Shown piece by piece: positions 14,326-63,690 of a DNA stretch of 64,000 nucleotides. The stretch covers positions 1,426,001 to 1,490,000 of the forward strand of contig NC_022357.1 in the NCBI RefSeq assembly GCF_000297055.2, in the 5' to 3' direction. The notes beneath the pieces are model-generated. The model saw only the letters and a program-made list of their open reading frames with translations. It was not told where the DNA came from and did no database searches. Position 1 is the stretch's first letter; every line of letters begins with the position of its first letter. Made by a program: the position numbers and the translations under genes. The stretch comes from Sulfuricella denitrificans skB26 (lineage in GTDB: Bacteria; Pseudomonadota; Gammaproteobacteria; Burkholderiales; Sulfuricellaceae).

Positions 14326-17300
14326 ATGAGCCAACTCCTTATCAACGACTACCTCAAGCAGCTCGACCTGATCAAAAAGGTCAGCGGCAGTCATCGCGAA
14401 ACCATCGTCCGCGAAGCTTTCAAGGATTTGCTCAAAGCCTGGGGGCGTCAGCATAGCCTGGTGTTCCTGGCCGAATACCCGCTCAAAACCGCCACCAAAA
14501 GCAACATCGCCGTCGATGGCGCGCTGCTGCACGAACTGCGCATGCCGCTCGGCTACTGGGAAGCCAAAGACGAAAAAGACGACCTCGATAGCGAGATCGA
14601 AAAGAAATTCAAAAAGGGCTACCCGCAAGACAACATCATCTTTTCTGACGATGTCACTGCCGTTCTGGTGCAGAACAAGAACGAAGCCTTGCGCTGCGAC
14701 ATGACCGATACCGGGGCGCTGGCCAAGTTGCTCAAGCTGTTTTTCGGCTTCGAGCGCCCTGAAATCGCCGGCTTCCGCTCAGCGGTCGAACAGTTCAAAC
14801 AAGACCTGCCCGCCGTGCTGGACGCCCTGCGCCTGATGATCGAGCGCGAACACACCGCCAATGCGGGTTTCCGCAAGGCCGAGCAAAAATTCCTGGTGCA
14901 TGCGCAAGAGGCCATCAACCCCATCCTCACCGACGCCGATGTGCGCGAAATGCTGATCCAGCACATCCTCACCGAAGAAATCTTCGCCAAGGTGTTTGAC
15001 GACTCGGACTTCCACCAGCACAACAACGTGGCGCGCGAACTGTACGCGCTGGAGGCCGAGTTTTTCACCGGTAATCTGAAAAAACAGACCCTCAAAGGCC
15101 TCGAAACCTACTACGCCGCCATCCGCGCCGCTGCCGCACAAATCAGCAGCCACGGTGAAAAGCAAACCTTCCTCAAAGTTATCTACGAAAATTTCTACAA
15201 GGTTTATAACGCCAAGGCCGCCGACCGGCTGGGCGTGGTCTACACGCCCAACGAAATCGTGCGCTTCATGATCGATGGCGCCGACTGGCTCACCGAAAAA
15301 CACTTCGGCAAAAACCTGATCGACAAGGACGTGGAAATTCTCGATCCCGCCACTGGCACCGGCACCTTCATCAGCGAACTGCTGGAACATTTTCGCGGCC
15401 AGCCCGCCAAACTCAAGCACAAATATCTCAACGAGCTGCACGCCAACGAAGTCGCCATCCTGCCCTACTACGTCGCCAATCTGAATATCGAGTCCACCTA
15501 CGCCGCCATCACCGGCAACTACGAAGAATTCCCCAACCTGTGCTTTGTGGACACGCTGGATAACGTTGGCCTGCACACCTCGGCGCACGGCACCACAGCG
15601 GATTTGTTCGGCAGCGTAAGCGAAGAAAACGTCGCCCGCATCAAGCGGCAAAATAGCAAGCGCATCAGCGTCATCATCGGCAACCCGCCGTATAACGCCA
15701 ACCAGGCCAACGAAAACGACAACAACAAAAACCGCGAATACCCCGAGATAGACAAGCGCATCAAGGACACCTACATCCACGCCAGCACCGCGCAAAAGAC
15801 CAAGCTCTACGACATGTACGCGCGCTTTTTTCGCTGGGCCAGCGACAGATTAAGCGAGAACGGCGTACTGGCCTTCATCACCAACCGCAGCTTCATCGAG
15901 AGCCGAACCTTTGACGGCTTCCGCAAAACTGTAGCGCAGGAATTCAGCGACATTTACGTGGTGGACCTGGGTGGCGACGTGCGCGCCAACCCCAAACTCA
16001 GCGGCACCAAACACAACGTGTTCGGCATCCAGACCGGCGTGGCGATCAGCTTCTTCATCAAAAAAAGCCGCCCCCACTCCCGCACACGGGAGAAGCTTGG
16101 GGAGAGGGTGGCTCGGGTCTATTACGTGCGCCGCCCCGAGATGGAAACGGCAGAAGAAAAACTCGGTTTTCTCGCCAACCACGCCATGAGCAGCTTGAGC
16201 TTTGACGAAGTGCAGCCTGACAAGGCAAGCAACTGGGTGAATCTGACCAACAACGATTTTGATTCCTTGCTGCCGCTGGCGAGCAAGGAAACCAAGGCGG
16301 CGAAGACGGTAGGAAAAGAGCGGGCGATTTTCAAATTATTCAGCAATGGTATTAATACCGCACGCGATAGCTGGGTGACCGATGAATCTGCTGACATGCT
16401 CGCCGAAAAAGCCACGTTTTTCATCGAGCATTACGAAAAATATGGCCAGACTGCCAAATCCCACGACACAATCATTAAGTGGTCTCGTAACCTTAAGGTG
16501 AAGCTTGCGCGTAACGAACGCGAGCCCTTTAATAAATCGCAGATTGTGCCTTATGCTTATCGCCCGTATTTCGGCAATTTCCTGTACCAATCTGACTTGA
16601 TGATTGACGAACTCGGACAGTTGCCGGCGATGGTCCGTGGTGATAACTGGTTGATCGCCATGCCAGCCGCAGGGGACTTTCGTTGCCTCGCGACGGATCG
16701 CGCCTGCGACTTTCATTTCATCGGAGACTCGCGGGTTCTTTCGCTGCATCGCTACGACGAAGCTGGCAACCGCACCGACAACATCACCGACTGGGCGCTC
16801 AAGCAATTCCGGCAGCACTATGAAAGCCCCTCTCCCGCCAGCGGGAGAGGGAGGAACGTAGCGGGGGGAGAGGGTAAGGTGCAGAAGATCACCAAGCAAG
16901 CCATCTTCCACTATTGCTACGCCGTGCTGCATGATCCGCTGTACCGCGAAAAATATGCGCTGAATTTAAAACGAGAATTCCCTCGCATCCCGTTCTACGC
17001 CGACTTCTGGCAATGGACGGCGTGGGGCGAGGCTTTGATGTCGGTGCATATCGGCTACGAAGCGGTGGCGCCTTACCCGCTCCAGCGCAGCGATATCCCC
17101 GACGAAAAAGTCCGTGCCGCAGGCTTGCAACCCAAAGCCCTGCTGCGCGCCGACAAGGACGCAGGTAGCATCGCGTTGGATTCTGAGACCACGTTGCGCG
17201 GCATTCCACCCGATGCATGGGACTACAAGCTGGGCAACCGCTGTGCGCTGGAATGGGTGCTCGATCAGTACAAGGAAAAGAAACCGAAAGACCCCACCAT

Positions 17301-17430
17301 CCGCGAGAAATTCGACACTTACCGCTTCGCCGATTACAAGGAAAAAGTGATCGATCTGCTCACCCGCGTCACCACGGTGAGTGTGGAGACGATGCGGATT
17401 ACGCAGGCGATGAAAGGTGCGGAGCGCTGA
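14326..17430 (+). CDS. Single-polypeptide restriction-modification enzyme (N6-adenine methyltransferase with N-terminal nuclease)
   Basis: A 1034-residue protein. Residues D64 and E79-A-K81 (VDGALL then GYWEAKDEKDD) form a PD-(D/E)xK nuclease motif. The methyltransferase core has motif I DPATGTGTF (from D340) and the adenine N6 motif NPPY (N453-Y456). The last 500 residues are probably target recognition. There is no helicase domain, so it is closer to type IIG than to the helicase-bearing type ISP enzymes it otherwise resembles. Two short palindromic repeats are read in frame at about residues 582-595 and 835-850. It stands alone, without separate R, M or S genes, next to two toxin-antitoxin pairs. 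Confidence 0.82.
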   Translation: MSQLLINDYLKQLDLIKKVSGSHRETIVREAFKDLLKAWGRQHSLVFLAEYPLKTATKSNIAVDGALLHELRMPLGYWEAKDEKDDLDSEIEKKFKKGYPQDNIIFSDDVTAVLVQNKNEALRCDMTDTGALAKLLKLFFGFERPEIAGFRSAVEQFKQDLPAVLDALRLMIEREHTANAGFRKAEQKFLVHAQEAINPILTDADVREMLIQHILTEEIFAKVFDDSDFHQHNNVARELYALEAEFFTGNLKKQTLKGLETYYAAIRAAAAQISSHGEKQTFLKVIYENFYKVYNAKAADRLGVVYTPNEIVRFMIDGADWLTEKHFGKNLIDKDVEILDPATGTGTFISELLEHFRGQPAKLKHKYLNELHANEVAILPYYVANLNIESTYAAITGNYEEFPNLCFVDTLDNVGLHTSAHGTTADLFGSVSEENVARIKRQNSKRISVIIGNPPYNANQANENDNNKNREYPEIDKRIKDTYIHASTAQKTKLYDMYARFFRWASDRLSENGVLAFITNRSFIESRTFDGFRKTVAQEFSDIYVVDLGGDVRANPKLSGTKHNVFGIQTGVAISFFIKKSRPHSRTREKLGERVARVYYVRRPEMETAEEKLGFLANHAMSSLSFDEVQPDKASNWVNLTNNDFDSLLPLASKETKAAKTVGKERAIFKLFSNGINTARDSWVTDESADMLAEKATFFIEHYEKYGQTAKSHDTIIKWSRNLKVKLARNEREPFNKSQIVPYAYRPYFGNFLYQSDLMIDELGQLPAMVRGDNWLIAMPAAGDFRCLATDRACDFHFIGDSRVLSLHRYDEAGNRTDNITDWALKQFRQHYESPSPASGRGRNVAGGEGKVQKITKQAIFHYCYAVLHDPLYREKYALNLKREFPRIPFYADFWQWTAWGEALMSVHIGYEAVAPYPLQRSDIPDEKVRAAGLQPKALLRADKDAGSIALDSETTLRGIPPDAWDYKLGNRCALEWVLDQYKEKKPKDPTIREKFDTYRFADYKEKVIDLLTRVTTVSVETMRITQAMKGAER
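16070..16109 (+). repeat. Palindromic repeat read in frame inside the restriction-modification gene (copy 1)
   Basis: A CTCCCG/CGGGAG hairpin followed by GGGGAGAGGGT, the same scheme as the repeat at 16827. It encodes an extra low-complexity stretch (SRPHSRTREKLGERV) between two conserved-looking segments. Confidence 0.65.
16827..16874 (+). repeat. Palindromic repeat read in frame inside the restriction-modification gene (copy 2)
   Basis: CCCTCTCCCG and CGGGAGAGGG form a perfect 10-base stem with a 4-base loop, followed by GGGGGGAGAGGG. It encodes SPSPASGRGRNVAGGEG, a stretch that reads as repeat and not as protein. Confidence 0.75.
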
Positions 17431-21840: not shown

Positions 21841-22518
21841 ATGAGCGCAATTGGAGGTGTTGGTGGGAGTTCTTCGGCGATGATGGGTGGAATGAATGGA
21901 ATGCAACGTCCTGATCCGTCAAAAATGGCCGACAAGTTATTTTCGAAGCTGGATACCAAAGGCCAGGGGTTTATCGAGAAGAGCGATCTTCAAAGCGCGT
22001 TTGATCAGGTCTTATCGAATAAATCATCTGGCAAGACCCCCAGCGTGGACGATGTCTTCAAGGCACTGGACGGCAATGGTGACGGCAAGGTGACCAAGCA
22101 GGAGATGTCCGATAGTGTCACAAAACTCGCCGACCAGCTCGACAGCCAATTCCAGAGCATGCGGATGAGCGGCAAGGGTGGTATGGGTGGTATGGGTGGT
22201 ATGGGTGGTATGGGTGGTATGGGCGGCATGTCGAAGAGCGACATTGGCAGCATGGCAGACAGTGCCACTGGCAGCGCATCACAGGCGCTGAACAGCCTGG
22301 CCCAGAATTTCGACGCGGCGGACACTAATCAGGATGGAAAAGTCAGTGCGCAGGAAGCGATGGCTTACCAATTATCAAACGGAACCGCCTCGTCCTCAAG
22401 TGAAGCGCAGAGTGACGATGCCAGGGTAATGGCTAGAATAATGGAGCTGGCAGCATCTTACGGCGCCTTCGGTCAAGACGAGAAAACCAGTGGCCGCACC
22501 ATTTCAACAGCGGCCTGA
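21841..22518 (+). CDS. EF-hand calcium-binding protein
   Basis: A 225-residue protein. Two canonical EF-hand loops start at D77 (DGNGDGKVTKQE) and D161 (DTNQDGKVSAQE); a third loop (DTKGQGFIEKSD, about residue 38) lacks some ligands. Between the first and last lies a glycine-methionine repeat of six GGM units (residues 113-130). There is no classical signal peptide; the N-terminus is rich in Gly, Ser and Met. It is divergent from an OmpR-type regulator and shares its upstream element with a Spy-like periplasmic gene, suggesting an envelope or metal stress role (inference). Confidence 0.82.
   Translation: MSAIGGVGGSSSAMMGGMNGMQRPDPSKMADKLFSKLDTKGQGFIEKSDLQSAFDQVLSNKSSGKTPSVDDVFKALDGNGDGKVTKQEMSDSVTKLADQLDSQFQSMRMSGKGGMGGMGGMGGMGGMGGMSKSDIGSMADSATGSASQALNSLAQNFDAADTNQDGKVSAQEAMAYQLSNGTASSSSEAQSDDARVMARIMELAASYGAFGQDEKTSGRTISTAA
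22177..22230 (+). repeat. 9-base tandem repeat, six units, coding for Gly-Gly-Met
   Basis: Six consecutive copies of a GGTGGTATG-type unit, five of them nearly identical and the last with GGCGGC. Slippage here would change the protein length by three residues at a time without breaking the frame. Confidence 0.9.
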
Positions 22519-52180: not shown

Positions 52181-53825
52181 TCGCGCTGCGGAGTTGCAGG
52201 AAAAGATGCGGGTGCTGCGTGAGGTCTATGCGGCGCAATTGCCGGAGAAGATCCGCCAGATTGAGGAAGCCTGCTCAGGCTATCAGTCCCGGCTGGATGA
52301 GGAAACCTTGCATGCGCTTCACCTCATGGTGCATAGCCTGACCGGCTCCGGCGCAACATTCGGTTTTGCTGAGCTCAGTCAGGTTGCACGTGTTCTGGAG
52401 GAGTATCTTAAAAATATCGTAAACCAGAAATCGTCGGCGAATGCGGAGAATTTCGCTGAAATCCATCAGCAAATTGTGGCGTTGAAGCAGGCCGCTTCAA
52501 GCTCCGATTCTCCACCTTATGTCTCGCCTGATTTAATGGCAACCTCGTCAGCAGCTGTCGGACCCGCTAACGAGAAGCTTGTTTATCTGGTCGAAGATGA
52601 GACTGACCAGGCAAGAGAGATTGCGCTGCAATTGGGTTACTTTGGCTATGAGGTGCGGGTATTCAAGCGATTGGATGATTTTTTGCAGGCAATGAAAAGC
52701 ACCAGGAACGTACTCGTTCTCATGGATATCGCTTTTCCGGAGGATTCCATGGGTGGGGTCAATGCCATGAGAGAAATCCAGCAGGGCCGGGATGAACCGG
52801 TTCCCGTCATGTTCATCTCCGCTCTGGATGATGTGACGGCCCGTCTTGAAGCGGTGCGCACCGGTGGACTGGCTTATTTTTCCAAGCCGGTCAGCATCGG
52901 TGATCTGGTCGATAAGCTCGATGAATTGACCTCTCCTGTTCCGCCAGAGCCTTTTCGCGTATTGATCGTTGATGATTCGACTTCGCTGGCTAACTACCAT
53001 TCTGCCGTGCTGGAGCAGGCCGGCATGGATGTCAAGGTGGTGAACAACCCCATGGAGGTGCTGGGGCCATTGCGGGAGTTTTCTCCTGACCTGATCCTGA
53101 TGGATATTTATATGCCGGAATGCAGCGGGTTGGAGATAGCAAGCGTAATTCGGCAATTGGATTCATTCGTCAGCATTCCCATTGTCTATTTGTCTGCTGA
53201 AAAAGACCTGGATAAGCAGTTGTCCGCAATGAGTCTGGGGGGTGACGATTTCCTTACCAAACCGATCAAAGCGGAGCATCTGGTTTCATCCGTAGCGAGC
53301 CGCATCCAGCGTTCCCGTCTGCTGCATTCCTTCATGGTCCGCGACAGCCTGACCGGATTACTTAATCATACTGCCATCAAGGATCAGCTGGAGCGGGAGA
53401 TGGCGCGTGCAAAAAGGCTGAAGGTGCCGCTAACCTATGCCATGATCGATATTGACCATTTCAAGCAAGTGAACGACTCTTATGGTCACCCCGCCGGAGA
53501 TCGCGTGATCAAAAGTCTGTCACGCTTGTTGAAGCAGCGCCTGCGTGAGACTGACGTGGTTGGCCGCTATGGAGGCGAGGAATTTGCGGTGATCATGAGC
53601 GAAACGGATGGCCCTGCGGGAATAAAGGTGATGGACGAGCTACGGGATGCCTTTTCCAGGCTGAAACATCTGGCGGATGGAAAAGAGTTTTCCGTTACAT
53701 TCAGCTGCGGCATTGCCGAGGTTGTTCATTTCGGGGATGCGATCAATTTGGGTGACTCCGCCGACAAGGCGCTGTATGAGGCCAAGCATGCCGGTCGCAA
53801 CCGCGTGGTATTGGCACGCGGATAA
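52173..53825 (+). CDS. Hpt-REC-REC-GGDEF protein (diguanylate cyclase with phosphorelay domains)
   Basis: A 550-residue protein. An Hpt domain with the phospho-His H54 (LMVHSLTGSGATFGF) comes first, then two receivers (VEDETDQ with LMDIAFPEDS; VDDSTSL with LMDIYMPECSG and LTKPIK), then a GGDEF domain with intact GGEEF at residues 467-471 and an inhibitory RxxD site (RETD) five residues before it. It should make cyclic-di-GMP under control of a phosphorelay, most simply from the hybrid kinase through its own Hpt domain. Its start overlaps the preceding receiver gene by 8 bases. Confidence 0.92.
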   Translation: MANRAAELQEKMRVLREVYAAQLPEKIRQIEEACSGYQSRLDEETLHALHLMVHSLTGSGATFGFAELSQVARVLEEYLKNIVNQKSSANAENFAEIHQQIVALKQAASSSDSPPYVSPDLMATSSAAVGPANEKLVYLVEDETDQAREIALQLGYFGYEVRVFKRLDDFLQAMKSTRNVLVLMDIAFPEDSMGGVNAMREIQQGRDEPVPVMFISALDDVTARLEAVRTGGLAYFSKPVSIGDLVDKLDELTSPVPPEPFRVLIVDDSTSLANYHSAVLEQAGMDVKVVNNPMEVLGPLREFSPDLILMDIYMPECSGLEIASVIRQLDSFVSIPIVYLSAEKDLDKQLSAMSLGGDDFLTKPIKAEHLVSSVASRIQRSRLLHSFMVRDSLTGLLNHTAIKDQLEREMARAKRLKVPLTYAMIDIDHFKQVNDSYGHPAGDRVIKSLSRLLKQRLRETDVVGRYGGEEFAVIMSETDGPAGIKVMDELRDAFSRLKHLADGKEFSVTFSCGIAEVVHFGDAINLGDSADKALYEAKHAGRNRVVLARG

Positions 53826-53885
53826 TCCTTAGAAGGCTGTTTTCGGGTATGATTTACCCTTTGATCTTAGTCACTCAGGGTAGTC

Positions 53886-56800
53886 ATGCTCAAACTGCGC
53901 GGCAGCAACGCACTTTCCTCTTTCCGTCTCGAAAAACTGATGCAGGGCCTGCACGAAGCAGCGTCTGCCATCTCACATGTTCACGCCGAATACTGGCATT
54001 TCGCCGCCACCCGCCGTGTGCTGGAAGCGCAGGAATTGTCGGTGCTGGAGAAAATCCTCACCTACGGTCCCGCATCCCCGGTGGAAGAACCGCAGGGCGA
54101 ACTGTTCCTGGTGGTGCCGCGGCTGGGTACGATTTCGCCGTGGTCGTCCAAGGCCTCCGACATCGCCAGTCATTGCGCTTTGGAGGCTGTCGAACGCCTT
54201 GAGAGGGGGGTGGCGTTCTACGCACAGAAAGCCGACGGCACCTCTCTGACGCAGCAGGAAAAGCAAATTCTGCTGCCGCTGATACACGACCGCATGACGG
54301 AAGTGGTGCTGACCGATTTCGACGATGCAGAAAAACTGTTCCGCCACTTCGATCCGGCGCCATTCAGTACCGTGGACATCCTGGAGCAGGGCAAGGACGC
54401 GCTGGAACTGGCCAACCGCTCGATGGGGCTGGCGTTGTCGCCGGATGAGATCGAATACCTGGTGGAGAACTTCACTCGTATCGGTCGCAACCCGACCGAT
54501 GTCGAGTTGATGATGTTCGCCCAGGCTAACTCCGAGCATTGCCGTCACAAGATTTTCAATGCCGACTGGGTAATCGATGGCGAGAAGCAGGACAAATCTC
54601 TCTTCGCCATGATCCGCAATACCCACGAAAAAAATCCGCGCGGCACGGTGGTGGCGTATTCCGACAACTCCTCGATTATCGAGGGATTCAAGGTCAAGCG
54701 CTTCTATCCGGGCGCAGGCGCAAAATATGGCTACGTCGAGGACGACGCGCAGATCCTGATGAAGGTGGAGACCCACAACCACCCTACCGCGATTTCGCCG
54801 TTTCCTGGCGCAGCCACGGGCTCGGGCGGTGAAATCCGCGACGAAGGCGCAACTGGTCGCGGCTCCAGGCCGAAAGCGGGACTCTCCGGTTTTTCGGTGT
54901 CCAATCTGAATATTCCCGGATTCAAGCAGCCGTGGGAATATTACAATAACACTGAAACTCAGGACTCAGGACTCAGCACTCAGCACTCCTATGGCAAGCC
55001 GGGCCGCATCGCTTCGGCGCTTCAGATCATGCTCGAAGGGCCGATTGGAGGAGCCGCTTTCAACAACGAATTCGGCCGCCCCAACCTGGCCGGCTATTTC
55101 CGCACCTTCGAAGAACAGGTGGCCGGGGAAATGCGCGGCTATCACAAGCCGATCATGCTCGCCGGCGGTGTCGGTAACATCTCCGCACGGCATGCCGAGA
55201 AACACCAGATCACGCCGGGCGCGCTGATCATCCAGCTTGGCGGCCCGGCCATGCTGATTGGCCTTGGCGGCGGTGCAGCATCGAGTATGGATACCGGTGC
55301 GAATGCCGAAAACCTCGACTTCGACTCGGTACAGCGCGGCAACCCGGAAATGCAGCGTCGTGCCCAAGAGGTGATTGACCGCTGCTGGCAGTTGGGCGAT
55401 GAAAATCCCATTATCTCGATTCACGACATTGGCGCGGGCGGGCTATCCAACGCCCTGCCGGAACTGGTCAACGATTCAAAACGCGGCGGAATCTTCAAGC
55501 TGCGCGCCATCCACAACGAAGAGCCGGGCATGTCGCCGATGCAGATCTGGAGCAACGAGGCGCAGGAGCGCTATGTGCTCGCCGTCAAGCCGGAGGATTT
55601 TCCGCAGTTCGAGGCGATTTGCCAACGCGAGCGCTGCCTCTATGCCGTGGTCGGCGAGGCTACGGCCGAACAGCGATTGATACTCGAAGACAGCTATTTC
55701 AATAACAAGCCGATCGACATGGATCTGTCGGTGCTGCTCGGCAAGCCGCCGAAGATGACGCGTAATGTCGCGCACCTGACCCGGGAATTGCCGGCTTTCG
55801 AGACAACCGGGATTGACCTCAACGAGGCGGCGCTACGCGTGATGCGCCTGCCGGCGGTGGCGGATAAGACCTTCCTGATCGCCATCGGCGACCGCACCGT
55901 CGGCGGCATGACAGCCCGCGACCAGTTTGTCGGTCCGTGGCAAATCCCGGTGGCGGATGTGGCGGTGACGCTGGCGGGATTCGAGGAATACCGTGGTGAG
56001 GCCTTCGCCATGGGCGAGCGCACCCCACTGGCTCTGATCGATCCGGCCGCTTCCGGCCGCATGGCTATTGGCGAGGCGATCACCAATATCGCTGCGGCAC
56101 GCATCGCCGACATCGGCGACATCAAGCTGTCCGCCAACTGGATGGCGCCGGCCGGCCACCCCGGCGAGGATGCGGCACTCTATGACACGGTACGCGCTGT
56201 CGGCATGGAACTGTGTCCGGAACTGGGTATCAGCATCCCGGTGGGCAAGGATTCGATGTCGATGAAGACGGTGTGGGAGGAGGGCGGTTTAAGGAAGGAA
56301 GTCACGGCGCCGTTGTCGCTGATCATTTCCGCCTTCGCACCCTGTGTCGATGCGCGCCAGACACTGACGCCTGAATTGCGTAGCGATGGGGGCGACACCG
56401 ATCTGATCCTGATTGATCTCGGCCAGGGAAAAAACCGGCTGGGAGGTTCGGCACTGGCGCAGGTTTACAAACAAACCGGCAATGATGCACCGGATGCAGT
56501 GAGTGCAGCGCAGCTCAAGGGATTTTTCGATACGGTGCAGCGTCTGAATGCGGATGGACGCATCCTTGCCTATCATGACCGTTCCGATGGCGGACTGCTT
56601 GCCACCCTGTGCGAGATGATGTTCGCCGGTCATTGCGGCGTGACGGTCGATCTGGACGAATTGTGCCTCGACCGCATCCGCTACGACGCCGAGCTGAGTG
56701 GGAAAGAACCGGTGGTGCCGCCTGGTGGCTACACCGATCGCATCTTCGGCGTGCTGTTCAGCGAGGAACTGGGTGCTGTGCTGCAGGTAAAGCGAAGCGA

Positions 56801-57935
56801 CACGGCTGCGGTGATGGAAGCGTTTTTTGCCACTGGCCTGCGCGGCGAGTTGCACGTCATTGGCACGCTGAATCGGGATGACCGTCTGCTCGTCCAGCGC
56901 AACAACAAGGAAATCCTGGGCATGCCGCGCATCGAGCTGCAGCGCACCTGGTCGGAAACCACCAGCCGGATGCAATCCTTACGCGATAACCCGGAGTGCG
57001 CACAGCAGGAATACGCAAGCATTCTGGATGCCGGTGACCCTGGCCTGCATGCGGCCTTGAGCTTCGACCTTAACGACAATGTCGCCGCGCCATTCATTGC
57101 CCTCTCTCCTAACTCTCTCCCGGGGGGAGAGAGGGACGAAGTCTCGCTTCGCGAGGTTCACATAATTGGCAGCCGTCCGCGCATGGCGATCTTGCGTGAG
57201 CAGGGCGTCAATGGCCAGGTAGAAATGGGCGCCGCCTTCGACCGCGCCGGTTTCGAGGCGGTGGACGTGCACATGAGCGACATCATTGAAGGACGCGTTG
57301 CCCTAAAGGATTTTCATGGCCTTGCCGCCTGCGGCGGTTTTTCCTTCGGCGACGTGCTCGGCGCCGGGGAGGGTTGGGCCAAGTCGATCCTGTTTAATGC
57401 CCGTGCCAGAGACGAGTTCGAGTCGTTCTTCCAGCGCAGCGACACTTTCGCCCTGGGCGTGTGCAACGGCTGCCAGATGATGAGCAATCTTCACGCCATC
57501 ATTCCCGGCGCGGAAAGCTGGCCGCATTTCGTGCGCAACAAGTCGGAGCAGTTCGAGGCGCGCTTCGTCATGGTGGAGGTGACCCCAAGCCCATCCTTGT
57601 TCCTCGATGGCATGGTCGGCAGTCGCATGCCGATCGTAGTGGCGCACGGCGAGGGTTACGCCGAATTCGGCAGCGAGCAGCAGATGAACTCGGCCCAGGT
57701 GGCGCTACGCTACGTCGACAATCGCGGTCAGCCAACCGGGGGTTATCCGGCCAACCCGAATAGTTCTCCCCGGGGCATAACCGGCCTGACCACGCCAGAC
57801 GGGCGCTTCACCATCATGATGCCGCACCCCGAGCGAGTCTTCCGCTCCGTGCAGCATTCCTGGCATCCCGCGGCATGGCTCGAGGACGGACCGTGGATGC
57901 GGATGTTCCGCAATGCGAGGAAATGGGTGGGGTAA
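53886..57935 (+). CDS. purL: Phosphoribosylformylglycinamidine synthase PurL (large single-chain type)
   Basis: A 1349-residue enzyme of purine synthesis converting FGAR and glutamine to FGAM. N-terminal PurS-like part, two synthase halves ([60 protein letters not shown]) and a glutaminase domain with catalytic C1193 (GVCNGCQMM) and H/E in [11 protein letters not shown]. It is about 50 residues longer than E. coli PurL (1295). The excess is largely explained by two repeat insertions read in frame: [11 protein letters not shown] (about residues 358-368) and [20 protein letters not shown] (about 1072-1091). Both lie in loops or linkers. Confidence 0.95.
54957..54988 (+). repeat. Heptad DNA repeat (ACTCAGG/ACTCAGC) inside purL
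   Basis: Four and a half seven-base units read in frame within the first synthase domain, where relatives go directly from KQPWE-like sequence to GKP.RIA. Similar units, partly inverted, end the PHP gene at 61011-61061. Confidence 0.8.
57100..57155 (+). repeat. 56-base repeat inside purL (copy 1)
   Basis: Begins CCCTCTCTCCTAACTCTCTC and ends TCGCTTCGCGAG. The same 56-base unit with a few differences lies before trpS at 62405-62460. In purL it encodes a linker between synthase and glutaminase domains. Confidence 0.85.
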
Positions 57936-57954
57936 TCTCTGCGGGTTCTGAAAT

Positions 57955-57983
57955 GAACAAGGGCGCCAGTGGCGCCCTTGTTC
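57955..57983. terminator. Bidirectional terminator-like hairpin between purL and the PpiC-like gene
   Basis: A perfect 13-base inverted repeat (GAACAAGGGCGCC with GGCGCCCTTGTTC) with a 3-base loop lies between the ends of two convergent genes and can serve both strands. Confidence 0.75.
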
Positions 57984-58004
57984 ATTGTTGCGGTGCTTGT
58001 TACG

Positions 58005-58871
58005 TTACTTTTTAGCAGCTGCCGTATCTGCCGTTTCTTCAATCTTGGCCTTGGCGCGCAAGTCGGAGATCATTTTGTCGATTTGCTGCTGTTGCGCGCG
58101 CTGGCGCAGGTTCTGTTTCACCTCGTCGAAGGGTGGCGCCTGCATCGTGCGTGAGTCCTCGAGCTTGATGATATGGTAGCCGAACTGGCTCTTCACGGGT
58201 TCGGTGGTGTACTGGCCTTTTTGCAGCTTGGTCATGGCATCGCTGAATTCTGGCACGAAATTGGCCGGTGCGGCCCATCCCAGATCCCCACCCTTAGCCT
58301 TGGAGCCCGGGTCTTTCGATTTTTCAGCCAGTTTCTCGAATTTCTCGCCTTTTTTCAGCTTGGCAATGATGTCTTTCGCATCGGCTTCTTTTTCCACCAG
58401 GATGTGGCGCGCATGGTATTCCTTGTCGCCCATCTGGGACTTGATTTTGTCGTAATCGGCTTTCAATACATCATCGCCGATTGGATTATTCTTGATGTAG
58501 TCCTGCAGGTAGGCGCGGATCAGAATGGTCTGCCGTGCGAGGTCGATCTGGGTGTTTACCTCGGCCGATTTGTCCATACCCTTTTTGAGCGCTTCCTGGG
58601 CAACGACTTCCTCGATGATCAGTTTTTCACGAATATTTTTCCGTACTTCAGGGGTGTCCGGTTGGCCTTGCTGCTGGCTTTGCTGGAGCAGAAAGTTAAA
58701 GCGCGCCTGGCTGATCTGGGCGCCGTTTACAGTGGCAATGGCTGCTGTAGCACTGACAGCGGGTACCGCGGCGGATTTGTCGCCATCCTGGGCGTTGCAC
58801 GAAGCGAGGGTGAGCATGCTGCCGATAGAGACTGCAAGAATTCGAGATTTGTATGAAAACATCAATGACAT
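58005..58871 (-). CDS. Parvulin-type peptidyl-prolyl isomerase, probable lipoprotein
   Basis: A 288-residue protein. The signal peptide ends in a lipobox (LTLASC), so lipid attachment is likely. A SurA_N-like helical part (VNGAQISQARFNFLLQQ, LIIEEVVAQEALKKG) precedes the parvulin domain (YHARHILVEKEADAKDIIAKLKKG, GGDLGWAAPANFVPEF, VKSQFGYHIIKLED). It assists folding of exported proteins. It is the last gene of a leftward operon with bolA, yciI and yciB. Confidence 0.9.
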   Translation of the reverse strand: MSLMFSYKSRILAVSIGSMLTLASCNAQDGDKSAAVPAVSATAAIATVNGAQISQARFNFLLQQSQQQGQPDTPEVRKNIREKLIIEEVVAQEALKKGMDKSAEVNTQIDLARQTILIRAYLQDYIKNNPIGDDVLKADYDKIKSQMGDKEYHARHILVEKEADAKDIIAKLKKGEKFEKLAEKSKDPGSKAKGGDLGWAAPANFVPEFSDAMTKLQKGQYTTEPVKSQFGYHIIKLEDSRTMQAPPFDEVKQNLRQRAQQQQIDKMISDLRAKAKIEETADTAAAKK

Positions 58872-58912
58872 CCTTTGGTTAAAAAAACTGGGTAAGGTTG
58901 ATTATAGTCTAT

Positions 58913-59176
58913 TTAATTCTCGCCGGGAGTGTACGCTTTTATGCTTATGGCGTGAATCTCATTTTGCAACATTTCTCCCAGCAACTCGTTGATCATGCGG
59001 TGTCTGGCTATCAGAGATTTGTCGGCGAACTGGGTTGAAACGATAGTCAGACGGTAGTGTCCACCGCCACCCTTGGCGCCTTCATGGCCGGCATGCCGGG
59101 CGCTTTCATCTTCGATTTCCAGACGTTCCGGGGAAAGCGGGGCGAGTCGTTCACGAATTTTTTCAGGTGTGCTCAT
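58913..59176 (-). CDS. BolA family protein
   Basis: An 87-residue protein with the BolA pattern: [50 protein letters not shown] and [13 protein letters not shown]. Members work with monothiol glutaredoxins in iron-sulfur handling. It overlaps yciI by four bases. Confidence 0.9.
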
Positions 59177-59475
59177 GCAGGCAGTACTTTCTTGAATGGT
59201 TTAACAGTAACTCGTGAGAAAACCCCGGCCGAGACGTAAGGGTCGGCCTCGGCCCAGGCGCGCGCAGCTTCCAGAGATTCGAATTCGGCCACGATCAGGC
59301 TACCCGAGAAGCCGGCTGGGCCTGGGTTGGGGCTGTCGATCGCGGGAAATGGGCCTGCCAGCAATAGTCGCCCATTTTGTTGCAAGGCATCCAGTCGGGC
59401 GAGGTGCGCAGGGCGGGCGGTCAGTCGTTTTTCCAGGCTGTCCAGTGCGTCATCGCCGATAATGGCATACAGCAT
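59173..59475 (-). CDS. yciI: YciI family protein
   Basis: A 100-residue protein with the YciI pattern: [24 protein letters not shown], then [37 protein letters not shown]. The His and Asp of the family are in place. It is encoded between yciB and bolA; start and stop overlap the neighbours. The biochemical role is not settled. Confidence 0.9.
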
Positions 59476-60086
59476 TACTGGACATCCTTGTCTTCTTCAA
59501 TGTATTTTGCCAGCAACAAGCCCTGTCCGAGGACAAATACCAGCATCAGACCAAGGATGCCGAACAATTTGAAGTTGACCCAGGTGTCGGTAGAAAAGTT
59601 GAAAGCCACGTACAGGTTGACGAATCCGACTACCGTAAAAAAGGTGGCCCAGCCCAGATTCAATCTATTCCAGATATTTTCCGGCAGAACCATCTGTTTT
59701 CCCATCATGGCTTTAATCAGGTTTTTTCTGAAGGCGATCTGGCTGATCAGCAGCACGCTGGCGAACAGCCAGTAGAGTACGGTCGGTTTCCACTTGATGA
59801 AGGTTTCATCGTGCAGGAGCAGGGTCGCGCCGCCGAATACCGTAATGATCGCCAGGCTGATCCACAGCATCTTGTCTGCCTTGCCGTGACGGAAATGTAC
59901 CCAGCCGATTTGGCCGAACGTGGCTACTATCGCGACAGCGGTGGCAATCAGGATAGGCAGCTGCTTCGTGTCCGCCAGATAACCGATCGAGGCGGTCAGC
60001 GCTGCAACCTGGTCAGGATATGCCCCCGCAAGTTTGAACGCACCAAAAAACAGGATGATGGGAAACAGGTCGAAAAGGAATTTCAT
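59475..60086 (-). CDS. yciB: Inner membrane septation protein YciB (IspZ)
   Basis: A 203-residue protein with about five membrane helices and the family start [19 protein letters not shown], followed by [10 protein letters not shown] and [25 protein letters not shown]. Related to cell envelope and septum integrity. It is the first gene of the leftward yciB-yciI-bolA-ppi operon, divergent from the PHP gene. Confidence 0.93.
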
Positions 60087-60110
60087 CAGGGCTGGTCGTA
60101 TTACGCATCA

Positions 60111-60139
60111 TTTCATCGAGACCCGTATTTTGCTATGAT
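60111..60139 (+). promoter_or_regulatory. Promoter of the PHP phosphatase gene
   Basis: TTTCAT (60111-60116) and TATGAT (60134-60139) are exactly 17 bases apart, 28 bases before the ATG. Confidence 0.45.
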
Positions 60140-60167
60140 TCGGGTTGTTTTAACAAGCCTGCCATAA

Positions 60168-61061
60168 ATGTCTTCCGTTATTGACCTGCATAGTCACTCA
60201 ACCATTTCCGATGGTTTGTTCACCCCTTCCGAGCTGGTTCGGCGCGCAGACGCCCAAGGCGTCAGGGTGCTGGCGCTGACCGACCATGACGATGTCGCCG
60301 GACTGGACGAGGCGCGCGCGGCAGCGATTGAGGCTGGCATTGCGCTGGTCAATGGCGTTGAAATTTCGGTAACCTGGAATAAACGCAGCGTTCACATCGT
60401 AGGTTTGCGCATCGATCCCGCATACGAGCCACTGCAAAATGGTTTGGCAGTGATTCGTGCCGGTCGCGGCGAACGGGCAATCCGCATCGCAGCCGGGTTG
60501 GAAAAGGCCGGTATCCCGGGCAGCCTGGAAGGCGCTTACGCCTATGCTGCCAATCCAGGCATCATCAGCCGTACCCACTTTGCCCGCTTTCTGGTGGCAA
60601 AGGGCATTGTCAAGGATACTCGTACTGTGTTCAAAAAATACCTGGTCAAAGGTAAGCCGGGTTATGTGGAGCACTGCTGGGCCGATTTTGCCGATGCCAT
60701 CGGCTGGATTTGCGCAAGCGGCGGGATTGCGGTGCTCGCTCATCCCGGCCGCTACGATTTGGGCAGGACCAATCTGGACAGCCTGATCGCCGATTTCAAG
60801 GAGGTCGGTGGTGAGGCGATCGAAGTGGTGACGGGCAACCATACCGCCAATCAGTTCATTCAATTTGCCAACTACGCCAAGGAATTCGATTTGATGTCTT
60901 CCTGCGGCTCCGATTTTCACGGTGTCGGCGAAAGCTACATGGATCTGGGTCGTTTGCCTGCATTGCCTCCTGGCTGCAAGCCGGTGTGGCACAATTGGCC
61001 GGAGATGGCGAGTGCTGAGTCGGCACTTGCTCAACACTCAACACTCAGTACTCAGGACTGA
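60168..61061 (+). CDS. rnm: PHP-domain 3',5'-nucleotide phosphatase / 5'-3' exoribonuclease (RNase AM, YciV)
   Basis: A 297-residue PHP enzyme with metal-binding motifs DLHSHSTISDG, LALTDHDDVAGL, NGVEIS, VLAHPGRYD and SSCGSDFHG. Such enzymes cleave pAp-type nucleotides and mature the 5' ends of rRNAs. The last 18 or so residues (ASAESALAQHSTLSTQD) are encoded by a repeat related to that in purL, and the stop codon lies in it. Confidence 0.88.
   Translation: MSSVIDLHSHSTISDGLFTPSELVRRADAQGVRVLALTDHDDVAGLDEARAAAIEAGIALVNGVEISVTWNKRSVHIVGLRIDPAYEPLQNGLAVIRAGRGERAIRIAAGLEKAGIPGSLEGAYAYAANPGIISRTHFARFLVAKGIVKDTRTVFKKYLVKGKPGYVEHCWADFADAIGWICASGGIAVLAHPGRYDLGRTNLDSLIADFKEVGGEAIEVVTGNHTANQFIQFANYAKEFDLMSSCGSDFHGVGESYMDLGRLPALPPGCKPVWHNWPEMASAESALAQHSTLSTQD
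61011..61061 (+). repeat. Heptad DNA repeat at the 3' end of the PHP gene
   Basis: GAGTGCTGAGT is followed by ACTCAACACTCAGTACTCAGG-like units in the opposite sense, so the array is partly inverted. The units match those inside purL (54957-54988). Confidence 0.7.
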
Positions 61062-61067
61062 ACGATC

Positions 61068-61700
61068 ATGTCCCAGTTTTTTGTTATTCATCCCGAAAAT
61101 CCGCAGTTGCGCCTGATTCACCAGACGGTGGAAATCATCCGCAACGGTGGTGTAATTGCCTATCCGACCGACGCCAGCTACGCTCTGGGCTGCGGACTGG
61201 GCGACAGAGAGGCGCAGCAGCGCATCCGCGCGATCCGTGGCGTGGATGAAGATCATCCGCTGACCCTGGTCTGCCGCGATCTGGCCGAGATCTCCGTGTA
61301 TGCCAAAGTGGACAACCGCCAGTTCCGGCTGCTAAAGGCGAATACGCCGGGCTGCTACACTTTCATCCTGGAAGCGACGCGGGAGGTGCCGAAGAGATTA
61401 CAGCACCCGAAGCGCAAGACTATTGGCCTGCGCGTACCAGATCATCCGATTCTCCAGGCGCTGCTGGCCGAGTTGGGCGGGCCGTTGCTGAGTACGACCC
61501 TGCAATTGCCCGGGGATGAGCAGCCGCTCAATGACCCTTATGATATTCGCGACTTGCTCGAACGTCAGGTTGATCTGGTTGTGGATGGTGGCTATGGTGA
61601 TGTGGACACCACCACCGTGATCGATCTGAGCGGTGAGACGCCGGTGCTACTTCGGGCGGGCAAGGGCGATATCCATCCCTTTGGACTGGAAGAAGAATAA
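61068..61700 (+). CDS. yciO: YciO-type Sua5/YrdC family protein (threonylcarbamoyl-AMP synthase-like)
   Basis: A 210-residue protein of the Sua5/YciO/YrdC family: GGVIAYPTDASYALGCGLGDREAQQRIRAIRG, HPLTLVCRDL, PGCYTFILEAT, KTIGLRVPDHPI and GPLLSTTLQLPGD. YrdC members start t6A synthesis on tRNA; the YciO branch has a related but less certain role. It starts six bases after the PHP gene and abuts the protease gene. Confidence 0.9.
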   Translation: MSQFFVIHPENPQLRLIHQTVEIIRNGGVIAYPTDASYALGCGLGDREAQQRIRAIRGVDEDHPLTLVCRDLAEISVYAKVDNRQFRLLKANTPGCYTFILEATREVPKRLQHPKRKTIGLRVPDHPILQALLAELGGPLLSTTLQLPGDEQPLNDPYDIRDLLERQVDLVVDGGYGDVDTTTVIDLSGETPVLLRAGKGDIHPFGLEEE

Positions 61701-62345
61701 ATGGAATTGAATATCGTACAACAGGTTGCCGTTTATGCCTTGCCGGTAGTATTTGCCATCACCCTGCACGAGGCGGCACATGGCTACGTCGCAAAGCACT
61801 TCGGTGATACCACCGCCTACATGCTGGGACGGGTGAGCATGAACCCGCTACGCCATATCGACCCGATCGGCACCGTTCTTATTCCCCTCCTGACCATGTT
61901 TCTGGGCGGTATCCTGTTTGGCTGGGCCAAGCCGGTGCCGGTGAATTTCAACCATTTGCGCAATCCGAAGAAGGATATGCTGTGGGTGGCTCTGGCCGGT
62001 CCAGGCGCAAACTTGGCCATGGCGCTCGGCTGGGCAGTGGTGATGAAGCTTGCCAATATGATGCCGGACAGTCCATTTTCCTTGCCAATGGCGCTGATGG
62101 GCATGGCCGGGATAAATATCAATATCGTGCTGATGGTGCTTAATTTGCTGCCGTTACTGCCGCTGGATGGTGGTCGCATCGCCGTCAGCCTGTTGCCTGG
62201 GCGGCTGGCCTACCGCTATTCCATGCTGGAACCTTACGGCATGATTTTGCTGGTGATTCTGCTGTTCAGCGGCGTGCTGGGCGCGATTATCGGGCCGCTG
62301 ATTCACGTGACAAAATCGTTGATATTGCTGCTATTCGGTATTTGA
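61701..62345 (+). CDS. Site-2 protease family membrane metalloprotease (M50)
   Basis: A 214-residue, short M50 peptidase with zinc ligands in LHEAAHGYVAKHFGD (residues about 22-27) and the second motif LNLLPLLPLDGGRI. About five membrane helices. There is no PDZ or CBS domain, so it is a minimal member. Its start follows the yciO stop directly. Substrate unknown. Confidence 0.88.
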   Translation: MELNIVQQVAVYALPVVFAITLHEAAHGYVAKHFGDTTAYMLGRVSMNPLRHIDPIGTVLIPLLTMFLGGILFGWAKPVPVNFNHLRNPKKDMLWVALAGPGANLAMALGWAVVMKLANMMPDSPFSLPMALMGMAGININIVLMVLNLLPLLPLDGGRIAVSLLPGRLAYRYSMLEPYGMILLVILLFSGVLGAIIGPLIHVTKSLILLLFGI

Positions 62346-62404
62346 CTAACGGTCATGGCGAACCGCTGCCACAATTGATGTAATAGCATTCGCCCTGACC
62401 GTTT

Positions 62405-62460
62405 CCCTCTCTCCTAACTCTCTCCCGGAGGGTGAGAGGGACGAGGTATCGCTTCGCGAG
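62405..62460 (+). repeat. 56-base repeat upstream of trpS (copy 2)
   Basis: Same length and layout as 57100-57155 in purL, with CCCTCTCTCC at the start and TCGCTTCGCGAG at the end. It ends 27 bases before the trpS ATG, so it lies in the leader. Confidence 0.85.
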
Positions 62461-62487
62461 TTTTACTTTAAGAAAGAACTTAAGAAC

Positions 62488-63690
62488 ATGTTTACTGAAC
62501 GCGTTTTGTCCGGCATGCGCCCAACCGGTAGCCTGCATCTGGGTCATTACCACGGCGTGCTGAAAAACTGGATCAAGCTGCAGCATGAATACGAGTGCTT
62601 GTTTTTTGTTGCTGACTGGCATGCGCTGACTACCCATTACGACACGCCAGGCATTATCGAACAGAGCGTCTGGGATATGGTGATCGACTGGCTCGCCGCG
62701 GGCGTGGACCCGTCCCGTGCGACCCTGTTTATCCAGTCGCGCGTGCCAGAACACGCTGAACTTCATCTGCTGCTGTCGATGATGACGCCGCTGGGGTGGC
62801 TGGAGCGGATGCCAACCTACAAGGACCAGCAGGAAAAGCTCAGTGGTAAGGATTTGAGTACCTATGGCTTTCTTGGCTACCCGCTGTTGCAGGCGGCGGA
62901 TATCCTTATCTACCGCGCCAACCAGGTGCCGGTGGGCGAGGATCAGGTGCCACACATCGAGTTTACGCGCGAGTTGGCGCGGCGCTTCAACCATCTCTAC
63001 GGACGTGAGCCGGGTTTCGAGGAAAAGGCCGAAGCCGCAGTCAAGAAGCTTGGCGGCAAGCGCGCCAAGCTCTATGAGGAACTGCGCACGCGCTATCAGC
63101 AGGAAGGTGACGAGAAGGCGCTTGAGTCAGCACGGGCCTTGCTTAATGACCAGCAGAACCTGTCTTTGGGCGACCGCGAGCGGCTGTTCGGCTATCTCGA
63201 AGGTGGCGGCAAGATGATCCTGGCAGAGCCTCAGGCGCTACTCACTGCGGCTTCAAAAATGCCGGGGCTGGATGGGCAGAAGATGTCGAAGTCCTACAAC
63301 AACACCATTTCCCTGCGCGAGGATGAAGACAGCGTGGCAAAGAAAATCCGCACCATGCCGACCGATCCAGCACGTATTCGGCGCACCGACCCCGGCACGC
63401 CAGAGAAATGTCCGGTTTGGCAGTTTCATTTGGTCTATTCTGAAGAAAGTCGAAAAGAATGGGTGCAGCAGGGCTGCACGACCGCCGGCATCGGCTGTCT
63501 GGAATGCAAACAACCGGTAATCGACGCGGTGCTGGAAGAGCAAAGGCCGATGCGCGAACGGGCGCAGATGTACATGGACGATCCCACCCAGGTGCGCAAC
63601 ATCATTTCTGATGGTTGTGAAAAGGCGCGCGAACTGGCATTCGAAACCATGCGCGATGTTCGCGAAGCGATGGGGTTGAATTACGGCTAG
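62488..63690 (+). CDS. trpS: Tryptophanyl-tRNA synthetase
   Basis: A 400-residue class I synthetase with the HIGH motif as GSLHLGHYHG and KMSKS in GQKMSKSYNN. An insertion of about 60 residues (VKKLGGKRAKLYEELRTRYQQ onward) before the KMSKS region is common in betaproteobacterial TrpS. The C-terminal part has CTTAGIGCLECK. An ATG at 62488 follows a weak AAGAAC-type leader. Confidence 0.94.
   Translation: MFTERVLSGMRPTGSLHLGHYHGVLKNWIKLQHEYECLFFVADWHALTTHYDTPGIIEQSVWDMVIDWLAAGVDPSRATLFIQSRVPEHAELHLLLSMMTPLGWLERMPTYKDQQEKLSGKDLSTYGFLGYPLLQAADILIYRANQVPVGEDQVPHIEFTRELARRFNHLYGREPGFEEKAEAAVKKLGGKRAKLYEELRTRYQQEGDEKALESARALLNDQQNLSLGDRERLFGYLEGGGKMILAEPQALLTAASKMPGLDGQKMSKSYNNTISLREDEDSVAKKIRTMPTDPARIRRTDPGTPEKCPVWQFHLVYSEESRKEWVQQGCTTAGIGCLECKQPVIDAVLEEQRPMRERAQMYMDDPTQVRNIISDGCEKARELAFETMRDVREAMGLNYG

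Follow-up and report, generated by a model that had tools for sequence, protein, structure and literature searches.

The purL gene of Sulfuricella denitrificans skB26 carries two unrelated DNA repeats in frame, a heptanucleotide array in the loop that follows QPWE and a hairpin repeat before the glutaminase part, and in sister species the same loop holds different repeats. Similar inserts stand in other core genes of this genome. We consider it probable that short repeats of this kind spread, land in genes, and persist in frame at the few loops that tolerate them, the inserts themselves being neutral to mildly costly.

The window analyzed here is a stretch of 64,000 nucleotides (C1:1426001-1490000) from a genome of 3.217 Mb in two contigs, given as 99.99% complete and called G000 below. 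An initial annotation of the window had named the two purL repeats; the turnover of repeats at one loop and the inserts in other core genes go beyond it.

Two repeats in frame within purL

The window's PurL matched the NCBIfam PurL model NF003672 from end to end with 2115 bits, against a cut-off of 783. It was the sole full-length match in its own genome, the other match being a short fragment of this hairpin. Both repeats lie in a single open frame, as the initial annotation had claimed, and their positions in the protein were also named correctly (Table 1). The loop after QPWE has 17 residues in the window's protein and 2 in short-loop relatives in an alignment of 110 PurL rows; the solved PurL 4r7g likewise has 2 residues there, and the extra residues align opposite a gap. 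The linker insert ends just before residues 1098-1099, at which the PurQ (glutaminase) models begin to match.

Table 1. Repeats and host features in the window
Feature	Position	Strand	Details or basis
purL, phosphoribosylformylglycinamidine synthase	53886..57935	+	one open frame, 1349 aa/codons
Enlarged PurL loop after QPWE, codons 352-368	54939..54989	+	alignment, DNA and frame, 4r7g gap
Heptad array, forward (stop-free), units ACTCAGG and ACTCAGC	54957..54988	+	Tandem Repeats Finder, pattern vs shuffles, all-frame reading
Hairpin repeat A, long stem CCCTCTCTCC..GGGAGAGAGGG, then second small hairpin	57097..57161	+	BLAST, copies side by side, RNA fold
Linker insert, codons 1073-1094	57102..57167	+	22 aa replacing one residue (net +21 aa)
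Second window copy of repeat A, upstream of trpS (L034)	62402..62466	+	89% identical over 65 bp
Degenerate inverted heptad pair, 3' end of PHP-domain ORF 60168-61061, C-terminus ALAQHSTLSTQD	61010..61061	+	
Palindromic repeat PSPASGRGRNVAGGEG, in frame in Type ISP restriction-modification ORF 14326-17430	16828..16876	+	

The heptad array in purL and across the genome

Tandem Repeats Finder read the purL array with period 7 and 4.6 copies at 96%. A three-unit heptad pattern with up to 2 mismatches gave five overlapping matches in the window, three of them in the purL array, where shuffles led us to expect 0.05; both results confirm the array as first annotated. The further claim that both repeats recur elsewhere in the window held fully for the hairpin, which has a good second copy, but for the heptad we found a degenerate occurrence only (61036-61060).

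Searching the whole genome, as the initial annotation had proposed for both repeats, gave 88 overlapping heptad matches. The reversed-pattern control gave 31, a count that we explain by ACTCAGG arrays also matching that pattern. We grouped the 88 matches into 20 places, purL included, that are 18 to 179 bases long. Heptads form tandem arrays of differing copy number at many places in the genome, at several of them with an inverted partner close by.

Among these 20 places, the recognized genes with heptads inside are purL and flgJ. In FlgJ (L168, G000:C1:1719802-1719847), two heptad arrays in inverted orientation make up most of the linker that joins the rod-binding part to the glucosaminidase part, and the predicted fold of the pair reaches -64.5 kcal/mol (z -6.4). 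The place at 579340 was rejected as a gene, since its long stop-free stretch lacks a start codon ahead of the array and seems spurious.

Two arrays of 179 and 172 bases (G000:C1:1679205-1679383 and 2732928-2733099), far longer than the rest, lie outside any long ORF. Separately, an ORF has, at window positions 22165-22230, tandem repeats with periods of 9 and 27 bp, one unit being GGGTGGTAT and the other longer.

Hairpin repeat A and the linker insert

The hairpin repeat, here called repeat A, was present as annotated, but the 56 bases first assigned to it (57100-57155) were too few: most copies align to about 57097-57161, or 65 bp, around a core of about 62-66 bp. As RNA, the purL copy has a predicted fold of -31.9 kcal/mol (z -3.1), with 1 of 200 shuffles equally good. 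A 21-base core with up to 3 mismatches matched the window twice, once in purL, with 0.00 matches expected. BLAST against the window's own genome returned 12 matches, the purL copy and 11 more, two of which lie about 100 bases apart; two of the other copies share 91% identity with the one in the purL linker. The copy upstream of trpS is extended by a further 5' hairpin starting near 62348, and the resulting 125-nt fold has a z of -5.5. An Rfam search of window positions 53800-63000 and nine repeat loci gave no match at the repeats. Repeat A was matched in 11 of 12 genus genomes. Of 150 genomes sampled from the order, 13 had a match, 4 of these 13 belonging to the genus.

The linker insert was found in 1 of 21 family PurLs, namely, that of the window, and is missing from all 20 others read. 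Two PurL rows outside the family (L062 and L072) have different, smaller additions at the linker position in the 110-row alignment. We saw no clean target duplication at the insert, which stands for one codon. In a model of the C-terminal PurL fragment (mean pLDDT, 81.9), used for the linker only, residues 1075-1093 (146-164 of the fragment) have a pLDDT below 50 and form the longest of four low-confidence stretches. A model of the FGAM-domain fragment, with a mean pLDDT of 58, was too poor for judging the PurL loop and was set aside.

The PurL loop across the family

We compared PurL across a family set of 22 genomes, 21 of which had a readable PurL loop (G002 gave none). The loop is enlarged in 11 of the 21 and has 2 residues in the other 10; within the genus, 8 of the 11 genomes read have an insert. 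Neither of the outcomes that the initial annotation had named as refuting its claim, relatives with these residues but no repeat in the DNA or repeats missing from the rest of the genome, was observed. The closest relative, G011 (PurL, 95.5% identical), has a similar heptad insert in the loop and none in the linker, and G010 (94.3% identical) has neither, its loop being 2 residues long. The linker insert is therefore probably a recent gain, as it is missing from both of these and from the other family PurLs.

The repeats in the loop are of several kinds. ACTCAG heptads occur in G000, G011, and G005, ACTCCTC/ACCCCTC heptads in G004 and G017, ACCCATC heptads in G006, and palindromes in G007, G008, G013, and G021; G001 has a short heptad-like remnant, which is a candidate repeat only. 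These repeats recur in their own genomes. The loop palindrome motif had 13, 11, 5, and 7 matches in G007, G008, G013, and G021, with 0 in the reversed control, and the loop heptad pattern had 32, 25, and 69 matches in G006, G004, and G017, with 1, 8, and 7 in the control. Loop inserts are present in many separate assemblies, among them metagenome-assembled contigs L043 and L054.

On a PurL tree built without the loop columns, in which 3 of 23 inner branches were open and the G006 row was 28% filled, parsimony required at least 10 changes of state by repeat type, as assigned by us, and 6 when an insert was scored as present or absent. Sister rows are often unlike each other.

In 89 other PurL rows, the loop has 2 to 3 residues in 68 and more than 3 in 21, mostly without an obvious repeat, and so the loop tolerates length anyway. 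One longer-loop row outside the family (L053) shows a heptad-like insert by eye. Tyrosines beside the loop repeat accompany several different repeats and may therefore predate them.

Repeats inside other genes

A looser palindrome pattern had 34 matches in the window's own genome and 1 in the reversed control. By ORF layout, seven lie in ORFs of recognized families: AddA, HypF, the Type ISP enzyme, PurL, IleS, HrpA, and TrpC. Two more share one 649-aa ORF (L218), which matched no family, and one is in RnfC, within its C-terminal tail. The remaining 24 are intergenic, close to the end of an ORF, or in ORFs that were not counted as genes, a class that included interior ORFs at repeats without a recognized family. 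AddA (L162) probably has its palindrome in frame, its best NCBIfam stretch stopping before the repeat. In the Type ISP ORF, the Pfam domain Type_ISP_C (C-terminal specificity domain; residues 667-1011) spans the palindrome. Residues 401-441 of HypF compare with 6 residues at that place in 3vth.

As in PurL, inserts recur at one site in IleS and in TrpC. One IleS loop has inserts in 7 of 20 genomes, of two kinds: repeat A in G007, G008, and G018 and other palindromes in G000, G002, G009, and G020; the region is shorter in 8c9e. One TrpC loop has inserts in 4 of 19 genomes, and 53 residues lie there between two matches that adjoin each other in the solved enzyme 6y88. In relatives, repeat A is in frame in IleS, PheT, UvrD, and a putative ABC ATPase.

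Another IleS loop, at about residue 438 (L285, L286, L289, and L290), has about 36 residues in G007, 27 in G001, and 3 to 4 in the window's genome, and the G007 version looks like yet another repeat. In G009, repeat A lies in frame just past the Walker A region of an ORF (L205) whose motifs suggest the ATPase part of an ABC transporter.

Reading frame of the repeats

Whichever of its three frames is read, a forward heptad array gives one set of seven residues and no stop, and reverse arrays have a stop in each frame. All of the PurL loop arrays are in the forward orientation. For repeat A, four frames are usually open (34, 32, 30, and 33 of 35 copies), and the remaining two are open in 4 of 35.

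At 11 of 39 repeat A loci listed from frame-blind searches, the repeat is interior to an ORF. Among the matches listed, all four interior copies in recognized proteins use one hydrophilic frame (PurL, IleS of G007 and G008, which may share ancestry, and the ABC ATPase of G009), as do four of the seven in ORFs without a recognized product, the other three not doing so. The PheT (G002) and UvrD (G021) copies also fit the hydrophilic frame, but these came from a frame-biased search.

Insertions were counted in frame only, with frame-breaking ones left out. The keeping of frame is thus no independent evidence, because the cases were found through open frames, and the net loop lengths are multiples of 3 by construction, having been read from such frames.

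Proposed origin of the inserts and alternative explanations

We propose that several families of short repeats, among them the 65-bp hairpin, REP-like palindromes, and heptanucleotide arrays, have been spreading in this betaproteobacterial lineage and would land inside genes as well as in intergenic DNA. An insertion would survive purifying selection if it preserves the frame and lies in a loop or linker that tolerates it, and others would be lost, so that selection acts as a filter on segments that are presumably translated and tolerated. The same loop may have been struck repeatedly by different repeats across species because tolerant places are few. Heptads probably grow by slippage. PurL would then combine one recurrent loop with a second insert, in G000 only, in the linker leading to the glutaminase part. 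Most likely, the inserts are flexible segments, neutral to mildly costly, and not new functional domains.

A more specific reading strikes us as possible rather than probable: that in core enzymes of this family the landing loops are fixed (for PurL after QPWE, for IleS near residue 225, and for TrpC between residues 176 and 230), and that at these loops unrelated repeats may replace one another by species, the repeats themselves being suited to genes (stop-free heptads and a hairpin with a preferred hydrophilic frame).

One alternative is that the inserts are functional and kept by selection, for example through effects on the folding of PurL, on ammonia channelling, or on the structure of the mRNA. 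Sister species lack them or have unrelated ones, with frequent changes of state; the linker insert occurs in a single family PurL; and the purL heptad RNA folds no better than shuffles (z 0.26). These points make a function quite improbable, despite the frequency of loop inserts in the genus (8 of 11 genomes), the one repeat A coding frame favored in recognized genes, and the repeat A RNA fold, which beats its shuffles. The frequent changes could also reflect loop states swapped between species by homologous recombination and not gained or lost in place. The loop heptads of G005 and G000 are near identical while their neighbors G009 and G010 are short looped, and the 150-base bin holding the loop stands at 0.85 for G000 versus G010 (overall, 0.905), among the lower bins, and at 0.87 for G005 versus G009 (overall, 0.944), the lowest. 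This dip is seen in the indel-bearing bin alone, where it may be alignment noise, and adjacent bins are near average. We therefore rejected the idea that local recombination fully accounts for loop turnover; swapping, which would in any case leave the source of the repeats unexplained, we judge rather unlikely.

Two further explanations would deny that the repeats are inserts in the enzyme at all. The loop could be ordinary fast-evolving sequence whose likeness to repeats arose by chance, as the medium loops of 7 to 16 residues in other PurL rows, mostly without obvious repeats, and the possibly older tyrosines might suggest. This is extremely improbable given near-perfect heptads at 20 genomic places (with 0.05 window matches expected) and loop palindromes and heptads that recur in the relatives' own genomes. 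At the linker, chance likeness is refuted by the 91% identity to two genomic copies. Alternatively, the inserts may be absent from the mature enzyme, the peptide being removed after translation, which is possible in principle for such segments, or the frame being an assembly artifact. We regard this as very improbable, since the frame is open across both repeats in a two-contig, nearly complete genome and loop inserts appear in many separate assemblies. Spread of repeats followed by survival at tolerant places thus remains our preferred explanation.

These loops offer a natural experiment on the peptide tolerance of core enzymes, with inserts of known origin at the same loops across about twenty related genomes. 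In annotation, stretches resembling PLPNPLPQGEG or TQDSGLS may belong to real enzymes with repeat inserts and need not be misannotations.

Comparison with known systems

Cyanobacterial genomes have dispersed tandem arrays of degenerate heptamers (STRR), which would be similar in kind to the heptad arrays described here. The heptanucleotide elements of Geobacter metallireducens, proposed to be regulatory RNA elements, have a different heptad, GGACCGG against the ACTCAG types here, in the portion of the account available (PMC2700814).

Rickettsia palindromic elements, described by Ogata, Claverie, and others, are palindromes of about 150 bp (PMC10969869) that lie in frame in unrelated genes and are possibly compatible with protein structure, according to the available portions of two papers (PMC10969869 and PMC3733652). 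The in-frame palindromes in the G000 PurL, IleS, TrpC, HypF, HrpA, and Type ISP enzyme are alike in this. The repeats here differ, on that partial account, in being about 65 bp or less, in belonging to several unrelated families that include heptad arrays, and in being betaproteobacterial; they were likened by description and not by sequence.

Intragenic GTAG and CGTC REPs (Di Nocera and others, 2013; PMC3733652) are, in the parts of that paper available, units or dimers within ORFs, including repair and tRNA-related genes. Double insertions are reported there in Thioalkalivibrio uvrA, both O. terrae uvrA genes, and R. conorii uvrB, so that the initial annotation's remark that such repeats are rarely documented twice in one gene is not supported. 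In recB of two Xanthomonas species, different REPs occupy about one site. The repeats described here share with REPs their place within ORFs, their occasional occurrence twice per gene, and the presence of different repeats at one site. They differ from GTAG REPs in that GTAG or CTAC lies within 10 to 14 bases of the stem in just 1 of the 39 repeat A copies listed (38 readable) and in that the Y1 (RAYT) transposase partner is absent from G000, where PF01797 had 0 matches in a search whose control was positive in 5 of 14 genomes. A CGTC-type motif adjoins the stem in 29 of the 39 copies listed but overlaps the stem base. CGTC REPs have an 8- to 9-bp stem starting almost invariably with AT, a loop of 4 to 5 bases, and a CCA-like tail, whereas the repeat A stem is longer, starts with C or T, and is followed by a second small hairpin. 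Heptad arrays do not figure in the available parts of that paper.

In the literature searched, which included few subscription papers and some sources in part only, we found no description of unrelated repeat families, heptad arrays included, refilling the same loops across a family. The present observations would extend those on Rickettsia elements and REPs to several repeat families together, including frame-proof heptad arrays. By analogy, we regard the Rickettsia palindromic elements and the intragenic REPs as the same kind of event as the inserts described here.
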